A program made the position numbers and the translations under genes. Below are positions 30,586 through 62,633 of a DNA stretch of 64,000 nucleotides, in pieces. The stretch is taken from positions 186,001 to 250,000 of the forward strand of contig NC_018213.1 in NCBI RefSeq assembly GCF_000219625.1, written 5' to 3'. Source of the DNA: Zymoseptoria tritici IPO323. Its lineage: Eukaryota > Ascomycota > Dothideomycetes > Mycosphaerellales > Mycosphaerellaceae. The notes below the pieces were generated by a model, which saw only the letters and a program-made list of their open reading frames with translations, was not told the DNA's origin and made no database searches. Each line of letters opens with the position of its first letter. Positions within the stretch are counted from its first letter, which is position 1.

Positions 30586-31035
30586 AAGGTCGAAGAGAAC
30601 GCCCAACGCTTTTTACTCAATGAGCTCGAGATTGAATAGGAGCGGGCGCCGGAAGGAGGCTGAAAAGGTGAGCATCTTGCATCGGGCAGTGTGCTGAAAG
30701 CATGGAATGACACCGGCATGGACAGAATGCGACAGGTCCCGCGGAACGTTCTTGCCTTGCCTTTTCCGATGTTTGCTTGTATTCAACTACAATCTCAATT
30801 CACCTCTTCTTCCATGTTCCGTTTCTTCTCGGTAACCTCCACTTCCCTCAAATACCTTCCAAGTATTCTGCTCTGTCTCCTTCTTCTTCTCATCAACATC
30901 ATCTTCTACCAAAGTTGACAAACCCTCCCTTGGATACCATTCATCCTTCGCGAACACCATTCGCCATCATCGGACACCAGTGCCCAACAACACCCGCTCT
31001 TCTCAAAGATACCAATTCCGATCAACACCACAACC
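30586..31035. other. Intergenic, pyrimidine-rich promoter region of the MYND gene
   Basis: About 450 bp with CT-rich runs (30780-31000), common upstream of fungal start codons. No other signal is seen. Confidence 0.5.
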
Positions 31036-31506
31036 ATGCCTACCGCCATGGGTCCCTGCGTCAACTGCGCCAAAGCCGCCCGCATCAAGTGTGCCCACTG
31101 CGACGATGGCGATTCCTTCACCGCCTACTGCGGCACCAAGTGTCTGAAGAAACATCAAGCCAAGCACCAAGAAGTCTGCAAGGAGAAGAAGAAAGTCCAG
31201 AGCGCAAAGGCACTCGTTCCTTCCGAGCACGCAACAAAGGCGACCGTCCCGTCCGAGGCGCACGCAAACGACGATGACGGCGGCTGCGCAGCTTGTGGGA
31301 AGGCTCAGACTACTCTCACATGCCTGCGCTGCACTGACGGCATCGTCCACTACTGCAACGAGAACTGCCACGACGCCTACATCAAGAAGCACAAGTTGGT
31401 GTGCGTCGCTCAGACGTTGCGCAAGCAGGCGGTAGGGGAGGGAGGGCATGCAATTCTCGACAATCCAGCATGGGATGGAGTCTTCGGGAATGTCATCTTT
31501 GGGTGA
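31036..31506 (+). CDS. Double MYND zinc-finger protein
   Basis: This intronless gene encodes 156 residues, starting in good context (CAACCATGCC). Two MYND-type fingers are visible. The first (about residues 8-48) has CVNC, CAHC, AYCGTKC and H...H...C. The second (about residues 84-122) has CAAC, CLRC, HYCNENC and H...C. A Lys-rich and then acidic linker separates them, and the last 30 residues are Gly-rich without a motif. MYND fingers bind proline-rich partner peptides, so a protein-protein adaptor role is likely. There is no SET or other catalytic domain. The protein is short and complete. The function in this organism is unknown. Confidence 0.85.
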   Translation: MPTAMGPCVNCAKAARIKCAHCDDGDSFTAYCGTKCLKKHQAKHQEVCKEKKKVQSAKALVPSEHATKATVPSEAHANDDDGGCAACGKAQTTLTCLRCTDGIVHYCNENCHDAYIKKHKLVCVAQTLRKQAVGEGGHAILDNPAWDGVFGNVIFG

Positions 31507-32174
31507 TTAGGAGCGCATATCTCGTTTCTTGGAGTGGTTCTGGCGGTTGTGAATTGCAAAATGGAAAGGAGTGACAGGAGCCTCGAACATGTCGATCGAC
31601 CACTCCATTTTGAGGCGTTGTCCTCTGACACAACACGGCCGTGGGTTTTTGGAATCGGCATTGATTTGAGCGTACTGCGACGGTGTGAGAGATATTATCG
31701 AATTGTTCTTGCAAGCATTTGCCGTGGCCATGAAGATCGGCTTCAAAAGTGATTTGCAATGTCCTCTGCATCCATCTCACTTGCGGGTAGAGCTAGGGAC
31801 ATTGCCTTGCGTGCTTTTACTAGACCCCAAAAAAATCAGATCGTTGATAGCCGAGAGATCCTTTTCATTGCCGTGCAGTATCGGTGTGGTTGCTCGTAGT
31901 CTCGCCATGGTTTGAGACTGGGTGTTTTTGGACTGAAAGTCTTGCGCCGAAGCTTGGGCGAGGTGAATGCTTCGCATGCTGGAGCTTTGTCTTTACCAAG
32001 AATAGCAGTGAAAATGTGCGAAGGTCCATGTATCGCGCGACTGTTGCGTGCGGCCACAGAATGGACAAGCAGTGCAGCCAAAGGCAGAATCCGACCAGCC
32101 AAGACTGAGATTTATAATGAACCAAATTTGCTGAGCTGCAGCCAATCAGCTATTAGAAGCCAAGCTTCTGAATA
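31507..32174. other. Intergenic, nothing recognised
   Basis: Downstream of the MYND gene and upstream of the tRNA gene. Overlapping short frames only. Confidence 0.5.
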
Positions 32175-32189
32175 CTCTCAATAGCTCAG

Positions 32190-32243
32190 GTATGCAGCCA
32201 CGTCGCTTGCTTCGCACAATTCCACTCTAACACCAATTTCCAG
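32190..32243 (+). other. GT-AG intron-like insertion in the tRNA-Tyr D loop (A box)
   Basis: 54 bp, with donor GTATGC, branch-point-like CTCTAAC at 32225-32231 and acceptor TTTCCAG. It follows CTCAG and precedes CTGG, so it cuts the A box TAGCTCAG-CTGG between its two halves. Size and signals match the spliceosomal introns of neighbouring protein genes. Confidence 0.85.
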
Positions 32244-32307
32244 CTGGAAGAGCGCCAGACTGTAATGGAACAACCCCCAATTGTCATCTGGATGTCCGCG
32301 GTTCGAT

Positions 32308-32362
32308 GTAAGTTGTACACATATGATTCCTGCTTTGAGGGGAGTACTAACCAGTCTATCAG
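32308..32362 (+). other. GT-AG intron-like insertion in the tRNA-Tyr T loop (B box)
   Basis: 55 bp, with donor GTAAGT, perfect branch point TACTAAC at 32345-32351 and acceptor ATCAG. It splits the B box GGTTCGAT-CCC. An intron-free version of the same sequence is present at 45375-45403, which proves that this segment is an insertion relative to the tRNA. Its first nine bases GTAAGTTGT are shared with introns 1 and 3 of the transporter gene at 51126-53291. Confidence 0.88.
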
Positions 32363-32382
32363 CCCGCGTTGGGAGACATCTC

Positions 32383-32387
32383 TTTTT
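32383..32387 (+). terminator. RNA polymerase III T-run after tRNA-Tyr
   Basis: TTTTT six bases after the discriminator base, the usual Pol III terminator placement. The tRNA fragment at 45375 has the same T-run. Confidence 0.75.
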
Positions 32388-45126: not shown

Positions 45127-45374
45127 GAGTGTTAAGAGTGTTTTGGTGTGCTGACGCTAAGAAATCCACTAATCCGAAAACGGGATCTGCACCAATCTCT
45201 ACCCCTCTATGCGAACCATTCTTGTGAAATGGTCCGACGTAGTACGAACTTTCCGGGTGTTGCATTCGACGCGGCGTCGACTGATAGTATGTTGCATGAC
45301 TGTTTGGCATCCAAATAACGTCAGAAAACCGACAAAGCCCGGCTGCGCCGTGCTTTGCCGGTTTCCTGGCTGAA

Positions 45375-45403
45375 TGTCCGCGGTTCGATCCCGCGTTGGG
45401 AGA
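45375..45403 (+). pseudogene. 3' fragment of a tRNA-Tyr gene without the T-loop intron
   Basis: The sequence TGTCCGCGGTTCGATCCCGC and the following acceptor strand TTGGGAGA are identical to the spliced 3' end of the tRNA-Tyr gene at 32175-32376, and a T-run follows at 45407-45411. No D arm or anticodon arm is found upstream. Instead a strong hairpin (AAACCGACAAAGC ... GCTTTGCCGGTTT, 45328-45364) precedes it. It shows the intron-free state of the B box. Confidence 0.75.
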
Positions 45404-45411
45404 CTCTTTTT

Positions 45412-46071
45412 GCCCTCGTGGAGCATCTTTTGGCTTCTTAGGATCATGTTTTGTGCCCTCTGAATCCAATTTTATGGTCCTGGATCGATTTTGGGCGGAC
45501 CCCTTTCGAAGGGCGATGACGATGTTGAAACGGATTTTCGCGCCGTGTCTCCCGGACAGCACGAAGGCCTGACCTCGATCCCCCTTTTGTACGTGGTCGC
45601 ATTCGAGTTCAACGACAATAGTACAAGTTGTGATTAAAAACCCGCAATTCGTCAGCAACTTCCTATTTAGGGAATTTCCCGCCGAGCCCCACTTCAAGGA
45701 ATAAGTTTGCCGTCTCAGACTTACGCACTCGTGACAGTGTCTGCGCAGAGATATCTGACGAGGCGCACAAACGTGAGACCACGTTTGCTGCAACATATGT
45801 TATCGTTGCACATCGCAGTACAAACTGTGTAAAATGTCTTTCGTTGCCATCCAGATCCAACTCGATGGCGGATCAATCAAAACTCTGCTTCTGCGTCGAT
45901 ATCACTGATTGTGCTGAAATATTTGACCGCATTCAAATTGAAACGCTTCGACCTAGTCTACAGAGTACAAACGGAAAACCTATAATACATGCGTGAAATA
46001 CCCGCCTCTCCTTGAGACATAACATGCCCCCGCAAGAACAGACGGAGTTCCTGACACTTCGCCTTCTTTTC
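45412..46071. other. Intergenic, nothing recognised
   Basis: About 660 bp before the stop codon of the FAD oxidoreductase gene. No motif-bearing frame. Confidence 0.5.
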
Positions 46072-59479: not shown

Positions 59480-62035
59480 TCATTCGCGAATTTGCTCCAA
59501 CACCACAGATCCCCCGCCATGACGATCGCTGTTGGCCAGCACGGTGACTTTGCCCGGCTCCGTGCCGGCACGAACAATGGCCAGCGCCTGCCCATGCCAC
59601 GTCGTGTGGACATCGTCATCATACCTTTCGTAGGTCTTTCTCGCACCGCTTCCAAAGCCCTCGAGCCGGGCTGGTCCGGTCACTGACAGTGTGACGAGGT
59701 CGTCATCCAACATCTCCACCGTGCCGTCCTCGTCGCACAATAACACACGGATGAAAGCGAGATCCATGCCATTGGCGCGTATGGTCTTGTTCTCCAGCAC
59801 GAGTTTCAACCTCGCTTCCTTGGCCGAACGGAGAGCCGTTTGAGATGTTTGGCGGCCTTGACGATACCCAATCGCGACGATTTCTCCCGGATAGTATGTC
59901 GTGTTGAAGCGCGCCAGGTTACCATATCGCCGACCGGGCGGGCGCAGCATGTAGATGGAAAACACGGCCGTCCCCGCTAATGTAGACAGAGCATACGCCC
60001 AGGAGGGCACCAACATCGCGGACACGACCCCCATCACACCAATCGCAACCGTGGACGGCGACAGTCGCGACGGATACCTGCCGACCTGCTTCTTGCCCAG
60101 CGACGTGCCGTTCAGCAGCACCTCCACCTCCTCGTCGTCCGACACGACATAAATCTCGGCACGTTTGCCCGCGCAGCCCTTCCACGACCAGCTGTGCTCG
60201 GCGTCGGTCTTTCTCCACGGCGATCGGAAAGTCTTCTTGTCGACGAGATGGGGCGGGCGAACGGTAATCGCCGGACCGGAAAGTAAATGCCACGCCGCCT
60301 GGGCCAGATACGCCGTGTGGCCGGGAACACCGATGAGGTCGACGGCGCCACATCCCGCGGAGATTTGCGGATACGGCTTCTGAAAGCTGCCTTTGCTGGT
60401 GTCGTAGATCCAGTCGGCCATGCCGCTCTCGCCGAGATAGTCCCATCCCGTCCACATGAAGTCGCCGATGAGGCTGGGAAGGGACTCGACTTGCGACCAA
60501 TTCCAGGAGATGTCGTCCGGTAGCGTCTCCGTGCCGAGGAGGATGCGATCGGGATGGAGGCGCACATCGGTGGGGAATCTCACCTCGCCGTAGTTGTAGC
60601 CACTCACGTCGACGAGGTGGAAGAGATCCTTGGTGACGAGGTCGGCGCGGGGGAGGCGAGGCAGGTTTTTGACGATGAAGTGGATGAAGGCGAAGAGAGC
60701 GTTGATGGAAGTACTGTCCAAGTTCCAGGCCTCGCCGCTAGGGGGTTGAACGTTGACATCTCCCGTTCTCTTCGAGGGCCAGCCTATAGCCGCGAGCATG
60801 AGATTGATAGCCGCGGTGACTGGCCTAGTCGAGTCCGACAGACGCACGCGCTCGACCAGACGTCTCGCAGTCTCCAGTCCGTACACGGATTTCGGCTCCA
60901 TCAACTCGTTCCCGATCGAGTACATGATGACAGAAGGATGGTTACGGGCCTTGCGCACCATAGCGTCGATCTCGACCTCCCATCGATCTGCGAATGAAGG
61001 GGCATCATCGTGGGTGGACTTGCGACTGTACCAGTAGTCATGATACTCATCCACGACGTACAGACCATGCACATCGCACGCGTGTAAGAGCGCCTCGGGA
61101 GCGGGGTTGTGAGAGCTGCGAATGGCATTGTAGCCGTTGGCCTTGAGGATCTTGACGCGCCAGAGCTCATAGTCCGGGAGCGTCACGCCGCCGAGAATGC
61201 CGCTATCGTGGTGTATACAAGCGCCGCGGAGGAGAGTCCGCCCGCCGTTCACTAGTAAGCCGCTCTGCGCGTTCCATTGTAGTGTGCGAAGTCCGACCAG
61301 TACGCTGTGGGATTCATCTCCGACTTTGACAAGCAGTGTGTACAGATGAGGGTTGTCGTCAGACCATAGGACTGGCCGAGCAACATCCAGCGGCGTAGAG
61401 ACTTGCAACCCCTCCGTCCGAAGCTCCGCGCTTGCGACTTCATGTTCCCCGTCGAGCAAACTGAACGACACATCGACGACTTCCCCGGCAGGATTGTCAA
61501 TCTCCGCAGTGGCCATGGCACGCACCGAAGGCTCGATCGCTATAGTCTGGAAGAAGACACCGCCCGGGCGCAGGGAGATGGTATTCCGGGCCACGATCCA
61601 CACTGGCTTCAAGACTCCCGACCCGATGTACCAACGCGCGGACGGCAGTTCTTCATTCTGCACATGCAGTTCGATAGTGACCTCTTGATCTCCCCGCAGG
61701 AACTGATCGATCTGGATTTCAAAATCCGTCAGACCCCAGGAATTGCCGCCCGCGGGCTGACCATTCACGAACACCTGACAATGTCGATACACGCCTTCAA
61801 AGTAGAGGAAAATCCTCTTACCACTCCATGAAGGTGGTCGACGCCAAGTCTTGCGGTACAGGTAGCTGCCACCCAAGAAGTAGGCCTGTGCAGGACCAGA
61901 GGGCGCGTCGGCGCTACGTCCAGTCTGGATCATGGCGTCCCGCGGTAGGAAGACTGGAGTGAAGGACTGCCCGTCGACGACGGACCGCACGTGCCAACCA
62001 TCGTTGAACGGGAGCGTGGTGTCGGAAATGATCAT
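59480..62035 (-). CDS. Glycoside hydrolase family 2 (beta-galactosidase/glucuronidase type)
   Basis: A single 851-codon exon. Domain order is the sugar-binding jelly roll (about 1-165), the Ig-like GH2 domain (165-270), the TIM barrel (270-600), then a DUF4982-like and a C-terminal Ig-like domain. The acid/base Glu lies in SIGNELME (about residue 377) and the nucleophile in LLGTETLP (about residue 501). No signal peptide is seen at the N-terminus. Unusually, a stretch of about 45 residues with two hydrophobic segments (about 655-698, IGVMGVVSAMLVPSW and STLAGTAVFSIYML) is inserted after LLNGTSLGKKQVG, inside the DUF4982-like domain. It cleaves terminal beta-linked sugars. Exact substrate is unknown. 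Confidence 0.9.
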   Translation of the reverse strand: MIISDTTLPFNDGWHVRSVVDGQSFTPVFLPRDAMIQTGRSADAPSGPAQAYFLGGSYLYRKTWRRPPSWSGKRIFLYFEGVYRHCQVFVNGQPAGGNSWGLTDFEIQIDQFLRGDQEVTIELHVQNEELPSARWYIGSGVLKPVWIVARNTISLRPGGVFFQTIAIEPSVRAMATAEIDNPAGEVVDVSFSLLDGEHEVASAELRTEGLQVSTPLDVARPVLWSDDNPHLYTLLVKVGDESHSVLVGLRTLQWNAQSGLLVNGGRTLLRGACIHHDSGILGGVTLPDYELWRVKILKANGYNAIRSSHNPAPEALLHACDVHGLYVVDEYHDYWYSRKSTHDDAPSFADRWEVEIDAMVRKARNHPSVIMYSIGNELMEPKSVYGLETARRLVERVRLSDSTRPVTAAINLMLAAIGWPSKRTGDVNVQPPSGEAWNLDSTSINALFAFIHFIVKNLPRLPRADLVTKDLFHLVDVSGYNYGEVRFPTDVRLHPDRILLGTETLPDDISWNWSQVESLPSLIGDFMWTGWDYLGESGMADWIYDTSKGSFQKPYPQISAGCGAVDLIGVPGHTAYLAQAAWHLLSGPAITVRPPHLVDKKTFRSPWRKTDAEHSWSWKGCAGKRAEIYVVSDDEEVEVLLNGTSLGKKQVGRYPSRLSPSTVAIGVMGVVSAMLVPSWAYALSTLAGTAVFSIYMLRPPGRRYGNLARFNTTYYPGEIVAIGYRQGRQTSQTALRSAKEARLKLVLENKTIRANGMDLAFIRVLLCDEDGTVEMLDDDLVTLSVTGPARLEGFGSGARKTYERYDDDVHTTWHGQALAIVRAGTEPGKVTVLANSDRHGGGSVVLEQIRE

Positions 62036-62633
62036 CTTGACTGGCAGAGGGTCATGTTATTGTCCGAGGTTGGACGATAATGCATGCGATCGAGAATGTG
62101 TGTCAGTTCGGAGATCAAGGGAGCTGTAAGTCGTGTGTGTGAAGATCCGGATGACTCCGGCTTGTATACCTCGATCGACACACAGCGTGAGGTAGTCAGG
62201 GATCATTCGAGTTGCCGGCCGATCCGTCATAGGGATGATGTGTGCTAGGATGATGAGCGCGGGCATCCATGTTGAACCTCATTCCACAGCTTCGTCGCAA
62301 GCATGGCGACCACGCCTTTGACATTTCCTGTCCGGACTTGTTGGGTCTCCCACTAGTATTGATGATCAACATCACGTACTCTGGGGTCTGGATTGTGTGG
62401 AACGAGAGCTTTCGTCAGAGCGATAGACCCTGGGCAACGCCACCTTGCATCCTGCACTATCAATCGTGGACCTGTGCTTTGGGCTTCATGCTTTCCAGCT
62501 ACGAAACCGCGAGGCACCAAATATCTGCGAAGCTCACAATCTTTGCCAAGGCCGAACTGAAAAATAGCATTACAGATCTCTCTTGGCTGACAATGAGCTT
62601 CTGAAGCCTGAGAAGGAATGAAATAAAATGAAA
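62036..62633. other. Intergenic, nothing recognised
   Basis: About 600 bp between the GH2 start and the stop of the small secreted protein gene. No gene. Confidence 0.5.

Follow-up and report, generated by a model that had tools for sequence, protein, structure and literature searches.

A tRNA-Tyr gene pair with spliceosomal-type introns in Zymoseptoria tritici IPO323

Removal of three segments from positions 32175-32376 of a 64,000-nt stretch of the genome of the wheat-infecting fungus Zymoseptoria tritici IPO323 (hereafter the window, G000:C6:186001-250000) leaves a 73-nt tRNA-Tyr(GUA); the segments are 54 bp in the D loop, 20 bp in the anticodon loop and 55 bp in the T loop. Our main reading, to which we assign a probability of about three in four, is that this is a nuclear tRNA-Tyr(GUA) gene, one of two found, with spliceosomal introns in the D loop (both copies) and the T loop (window copy), and that it would be expressed through a combined Pol III and spliceosome pathway. 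Judged by the comparisons described below, the tRNA-Tyr gene pair with spliceosomal-type introns is a genuine and surprising feature. The parts of the gene, its flanks and a related fragment are listed here by their positions in the window.

32111 to 32118, + strand: TATA-like sequence TTTATAAT (presumed role), its first base 31 bp upstream of the shared leader
32142 to 32174, + strand: shared 33-nt 5' leader, beginning CCAATCAGCTATTAG, with a hairpin formed by 32153-32160 and 32164-32171
32175 to 32189, + strand: tRNA-Tyr exon 1, positions 1-15, 15 nt, identical in the chromosome 11 copy
32190 to 32243, + strand: D-loop GT-AG intron (intron 1), 54 nt, GTATGC ... CTAAC ... CAG
32244 to 32265, + strand: tRNA-Tyr exon 2, positions 16-37, with the anticodon GTA, 22 nt, identical in the chromosome 11 copy
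32266 to 32285, + strand: anticodon-loop (37/38) intron, 20 nt (19 nt in the chromosome 11 copy)
32286 to 32307, + strand: tRNA-Tyr exon 3, positions 38-59, with the 3' end GGTTCGAT, 22 nt, identical in the chromosome 11 copy
32308 to 32362, + strand: T-loop GT-AG intron (intron 2), 55 nt, GTAAGT ... TACTAAC ... CAG, window copy only
32363 to 32376, + strand: tRNA-Tyr exon 4, positions 60-73, with discriminator A, 14 nt, identical in the chromosome 11 copy
32377 to 32387, + strand: trailer CATCTC, common to both copies, and a TTTTT run (32383-32387) resembling a Pol III terminator
45370 to 45413, + strand: relic of the tRNA-Tyr 3' half, from about position 40 to the T run (BLASTN, 93%)

Neither ARAGORN nor Rfam reported a tRNA in the window, and ARAGORN found none in the unspliced gene or in the gene lacking only its anticodon intron. 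With the D- and T-loop segments removed, ARAGORN gave a full tRNA-Tyr(gta) cloverleaf, and the spliced sequence showed the GUA anticodon together with C1-G72 and A73, which we take to be the tRNA-Tyr identity bases here. An initial annotation of this DNA had stated that a cloverleaf appears only after three segments are removed, which the comparison of unspliced and spliced forms bears out. Its junctions, 32189/32244 and 32307/32363, match the boundaries that we re-read from the sequence, and its description of intact stems, identity bases and T-run terminator agrees with the ARAGORN cloverleaf, C1-G72, A73 and TTTTT. The anticodon intron was set after position 37 by convention; ARAGORN puts its start one base later.

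Contiguous A and B boxes are lacking in the window copy, in which both are interrupted. The cut in the A box follows position 15 in both copies; that in the B box follows position 59 and is confined to the window copy, the B box of the chromosome 11 copy being uncut. The interruption of both promoter boxes had already been proposed, and each box is indeed cut, but neither is lost: the A-box part TAGCTCAG and the B-box part GGTTCGAT are both preserved undivided, each within one exon.

The genome, comprising 39,686,251 bases in 21 contigs (chromosomes), contained one other full tRNA-Tyr copy, on chromosome 11 (G000:C11:1197403). This copy has a D-loop intron of 53 nt at the same position (GTACAC ... 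CTAAC ... CAG) and an anticodon intron of 19 nt, also at the same position, and is without the T-loop intron. The spliced tRNAs of the two copies are identical at 73/73 bases. Over the 55 alignment columns of intron 1, by comparison, 15 bases are mismatched and 3 columns are gaps, whereas the exons have 0/73 differences (Fisher p = 5e-7, gaps left out), and GT, CTAAC and CAG are kept in both intron 1 copies despite the divergence elsewhere. The same-position intron of the chromosome 11 copy is the strongest check on the D-loop segment. Taken alone, the 0.71 matches per aligned pair in intron 1 say little on common origin, because flanks unmatched by BLAST reach 0.68-0.77 in the same gapped alignment, with 12-32 gap columns. 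As its match score is flank-like and the flanks have many more gaps, we regard intron 1 as strongly diverged.

When the 8.0-kb and 9.0-kb neighbourhoods of the two copies were compared by BLAST (E <= 1), only two pieces matched, one from -33 to position 59 and the other from position 60 to the T run, and the 55-base gap between them in the window copy is exactly intron 2. The T-loop intron is a presence/absence difference between the paralogues with exact junctions. Since the match is confined to the stretch from -33 to the T run, the shared unit corresponds to the probable transcript. The similarity stops at the T run itself, which is TTTTT in the window copy and TTTT in the chromosome 11 copy. 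Most simply, the D-loop intron would be older than the gene duplication and the T-loop intron a later gain in the window copy, with loss from the chromosome 11 copy as the alternative.

The relic at 45370-45413 lies 13 kb downstream of the window gene on the same strand; it is without the T-loop intron and retains the trailer and T run. No 5' half of this relic was recognisable in the 1.1 kb upstream of it. Introner-like elements represent recent intron gain in Zymoseptoria and its relatives. With the 202-nt gene as the query (E <= 0.001), only the two tRNA-Tyr loci matched, and there was no other match to intron 2; as the search skips very common words, intron 2 may still belong to a large introner-like family.

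All three D- and T-loop segments (intron 1 of two copies and intron 2 of one) begin with GT, finish with AG and carry CTAAC at a distance of 12-13 nt from the 3' end, and in the window copy the branch A lies 13 nt from the 3' end in intron 1 and 12 nt in intron 2. Fungal U3 introns are described as having mostly a GTRWGT donor, an RCTRAC branch site and a YAG acceptor, and the fungal branch-to-acceptor distance as ranging over 6-36 nt (PMC5832005, section 3.2), so the distances of 12-13 nt fit with fungal introns. Compared with GTRWGT, the donor of intron 2 is a full fit, that of window intron 1 (GTATGC) has one mismatch, and that of the chromosome 11 copy (GTACAC) is mismatched at 3/6 bases. 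An R precedes CTAAC in intron 2 only, both intron 1 branch sites departing from RCTRAC, and the T-loop intron has an additional CAG directly 3' of the branch point. With 53-55 nt, the D- and T-loop introns are well under the 92-nt mean given for fungal U3 introns (PMC5832005).

In same-composition shuffles, GT..CTAAC..AG arose 15 times in 200,000 for window intron 1 and 17 times in 200,000 for chromosome 11 intron 1, and the signals of intron 2, including GTAAGT, were obtained in 0/200,000. The window itself contained 8 intron-1-like 54-mers among 63,947 on the + strand (intron 1 counted) and 3 among 63,947 on the - strand, and a single intron-2-like 55-mer among 63,946 on the + strand (intron 2 itself) and 0/63,946 on the - strand. 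The unspliced transcripts showed no folding advantage over shuffled sequences (z 0.56 and -0.44). The initial annotation had recognized, in addition to the anticodon intron, two introns of the GT-AG spliceosomal type, and the shuffles and the D-loop intron of the second copy back this assignment.

BLASTN (E <= 10) against the genome detected no uninterrupted tRNA-Tyr gene; the matches were the two genes and the 3' relic. The pattern GACTGTA..GGTTCRA had 14 matches, two of which are these genes, against 28 in the reversed control, and ARAGORN genes were found in 0/14. The pattern GNCTGTA..GTTCRANNC had 62 matches (one being the chromosome 11 copy) against 109 in the control, and a pattern for an uninterrupted D arm with the Tyr anticodon had 21 matches against 62 in the control, with no uninterrupted tRNA-Tyr gene among them. 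From the 61 remaining GNCTGTA..GTTCRANNC matches and the 21 matches of the D-arm/anticodon pattern, 81 stretches were taken, in which ARAGORN at default settings found 0 tRNA genes. Under relaxed settings (-ps80), ARAGORN made 47 calls across these stretches, of which 5 were labelled Tyr(gta); these were taken as noise because the default run gave 0/81 and a single stretch of the 81 was matched by the Tyr model (E <= 1), at 15.2 bits, without an anticodon arm and without the GTTC loop. The count of intron-free tRNA-Tyr genes that the initial annotation had suggested making was 0 by BLASTN and patterns across the genome. It is likely that the genome has no uninterrupted tRNA-Tyr gene, although a differently split gene or one of unusual sequence could escape BLASTN and the patterns. 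The assembly is described as finished, with an error below 1 in 100,000, and as nearly gap-free (PMC3111534).

A general tRNA search with RF00005 gave at least 58 matches, with 63 of 1206 candidates scored. ARAGORN applied to 78 loci reported 56 genes, and 53 of these were copies of a dispersed tRNA-like repeat with the anticodon ACA (49) or ATA (4). We interpret the repeat as an element derived from tRNA-Cys that has undergone RIP mutation. As this repeat swamps the general tRNA search, a census of tRNA genes is uninformative here. The exon-2 pattern had 0 matches in viral and prokaryote collections. ARAGORN and Rfam are blind to the two tRNA-Tyr genes, and tRNA finders may miss tRNA-Tyr in such genomes.

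A protein-gene reading of the locus was also considered and set aside: one of ten nearby stop-to-stop ORFs carried a Pfam domain (E <= 0.001), a MYND finger in 30919-31506. Elsewhere in the window, 59480-62056 on the - strand encodes a beta-galactosidase-like protein of glycoside hydrolase family 2, which shares 96-97% identity with a protein of Z. tritici ST99CH_3D1. Among the 120 matches listed for this protein, the named organisms beyond Zymoseptoria are bacteria (e.g. Actinoplanes, 45-46% identity), and horizontal transfer of the gene is possible. The G+C content per 2-kb step changes from 41-46% over window positions 1-28000 to 52-60% over 28001-64000, and the shift near 28 kb is probably the edge of a repeat-rich block. 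In the genome as a whole, where U6 was sought as a precedent, RF00026, a human U6 core and three conserved-core patterns showed no U6 snRNA gene, an outcome that carries no weight unless a positive control accompanies it; U6 here may be split by introns or lie beyond the reach of these searches.

Upstream of the tRNA-Tyr genes, the chromosome 11 copy has the TATA-like sequence ATATATTATA starting 28 bp ahead of its leader. The TATA-like region lies outside the BLAST match between the copies, and a TATA-like sequence also occurs upstream of 2/3 ordinary tRNA genes examined, so it is not special to tRNA-Tyr. The leader hairpin has 8 bp and a 3-nt loop, and 28/34 bases from -34 to -1 are alike in the two copies. 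Within the hairpin, one compensatory A-U to G-C change and one G-U to A-U change separate the copies, and one outer pair is lost in the chromosome 11 copy; a comparison of two sequences is thin. The exact 15-mer CCAATCAGCTATTAG occurs in the genome at the two tRNA-Tyr genes only. With up to 3 mismatches, the leader had 560 matches against 589 in the reversed control, which is no enrichment, and only the exact match is specific. On the shared unit, the initial annotation needed extension, as the second copy, the 33-nt hairpin leader and the TATA-like sequence were all absent from it. The identical exons, leader hairpin, TATA-like sequence and shared T run fit with a probable Pol III unit that receives outside help. 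For Cyanidioschyzon merolae tRNA genes with interrupted A and B boxes, it has been suggested that an upstream TATA box recruits TFIIIB (PMC3978253).

In the pathway that we envisage, Pol III would start about 30 bp past the upstream TATA-like sequence, pass through the short hairpin leader and the gene, and terminate at the T run. The nuclear spliceosome would then take out the D- and T-loop introns so that the cloverleaf could form, after which the ends would be trimmed and the tRNA splicing endonuclease and ligase would excise the anticodon intron. The tRNA endonuclease and the end-trimming enzymes require a folded tRNA, so the spliceosomal introns would have to leave first. The anatomy of the gene, the second copy, the conservation pattern and the negative searches for an intact tRNA-Tyr are observed; that Pol III transcribes the gene, that the spliceosome excises the introns, in what order the steps take place and that the gene functions are inferred. 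The window copy is probably still functional. With somewhat less assurance, and leaning only slightly towards it, we further propose that all cytosolic Tyr decoding would be spliceosome-dependent through both genes, with transcription free of contiguous A and B boxes. If there is no other gene, removal of the D-loop intron would be needed to read Tyr codons.

tRNA splicing and mRNA splicing are usually taught as separate processes, each with its own machines. If the proposal is true, translation of every Tyr codon would be directly tied to the mRNA splicing machinery. A tRNA requiring both machineries would mean that a tRNA precursor can serve as a substrate of the spliceosome, that the internal promoter of a tRNA gene can house introns and that dependence on mRNA splicing can arise in an essential tRNA, and the two paralogues give the order of the intron gains.

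The initial annotation had offered silencing by inserted intron-like elements as an option. For the D-loop intron this is unlikely: it is common to two diverged copies with the same exon sequence, and the searches brought up no uninterrupted tRNA-Tyr gene. A narrower form, which overlaps with our main reading, holds that the D-loop intron works but that the window copy was inactivated when the T-loop intron was inserted later, which would leave the chromosome 11 copy as the sole supplier of tRNA-Tyr. The T-loop intron, which the window copy alone has, interrupts the B box and makes a third round of splicing necessary, but this copy retains its leader and T run, the signals of intron 2 match the consensus throughout (GTAAGT/ACTAAC/CAG), and the exons agree with those of the chromosome 11 copy at all 73 positions, as they also would after a very recent insertion. 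The sequence decay of a tRNA pseudogene was not seen (0/73 exon differences), a result that a very recent death would share. We consider the death of the window copy unlikely, but that this copy still works is less certain than the main reading. A reading in which neither locus is functional and the cell relies on a tRNA-Tyr gene that escaped detection is improbable. Patterns and BLASTN are less than a full tRNA scan, and the general tRNA model, swamped by the repeat, scored 63/1206 candidates; against this stand the identical exons beside diverged introns, four negative searches and an assembly described as nearly gap-free (PMC3111534).

It is more improbable still that the tRNA splicing endonuclease removes the D- and T-loop segments as ectopic introns, with the GT-AG ends accidental. 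Such introns are described in the D and T loops of C. merolae (PMC3978253), which corrects the initial annotation's claim that these positions are not used by endonuclease introns, and for this reason position alone does not speak against an endonuclease route. At the +3 register, the T-loop segment also pairs as a full bulge-helix-bulge (4/4 and 3/3 pairs), but excision in this register would disrupt the T stem, and the D-loop junctions of either copy form no full bulge-helix-bulge in 7 registers. This test, which calls for a 4-bp central helix and 3-nt bulges, carries little weight, as both ordinary anticodon introns fail its strict form too. The endonuclease explanation would moreover need a coincidence of branch and splice signals at three introns. 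An assembly error or a chance resemblance has a negligible probability: no point in its support was found, and the finished assembly (PMC3111534), the second locus with the same D-loop intron and the shuffle counts all stand against it.

Among known systems, multiple and ectopic tRNA introns, outside the anticodon loop as here, are described for C. merolae and the Guillardia theta nucleomorph (PMC3978253) and for some archaea (PMC3978253, PMC8450103). Those of C. merolae include introns in the D and T loops, like the ones reported here, and interrupt the A and B boxes (PMC3978253). Ectopic tRNA introns elsewhere are described as having a bulge-helix-bulge and being removed by the tRNA endonuclease, whereas those found here have GT, CTAAC and AG; many G. 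theta introns are, in the same account, without a defined bulge-helix-bulge motif (PMC3978253). In tRNAscan-SE 2.0, archaeal-model candidates are examined for noncanonical introns (PMC8450103), and a 2026 review attributes tRNA splicing to protein enzymes and not to the spliceosome (PMC13149111). The canonical eukaryotic tRNA-Tyr anticodon intron is represented here by the 20- and 19-nt introns after position 37, and the other interruptions differ from it. Among the matches listed from the open-licence literature, none described a nuclear tRNA gene with a spliceosomal intron.

The fission yeast U6 precursor is reportedly spliced by pre-mRNA splicing factors, and U6 introns are said to be the subject of Canzler 2016. 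A 2017 survey presents U3 snoRNA and U6 snRNA as the sole small structured RNAs then known to be often interrupted by introns (PMC5832005), and U6 is described as a Pol III product (PMC10484740). The mRNA-type introns of fungal U6 and U3 resemble those reported here in being short GT-AG introns with a CTRAC-type branch site in small structured RNA genes, and the introns of fungal U3 differ between paralogues, as the T-loop intron does here (PMC5832005). Unlike U6 and U3, the host here is a tRNA with both internal promoter boxes split in the window copy, and its anticodon intron needs a second splicing step by protein enzymes. On the best reading, the gene pair would operate in the manner of U6 and U3 genes that carry introns, and its product makes it a tRNA gene pair.
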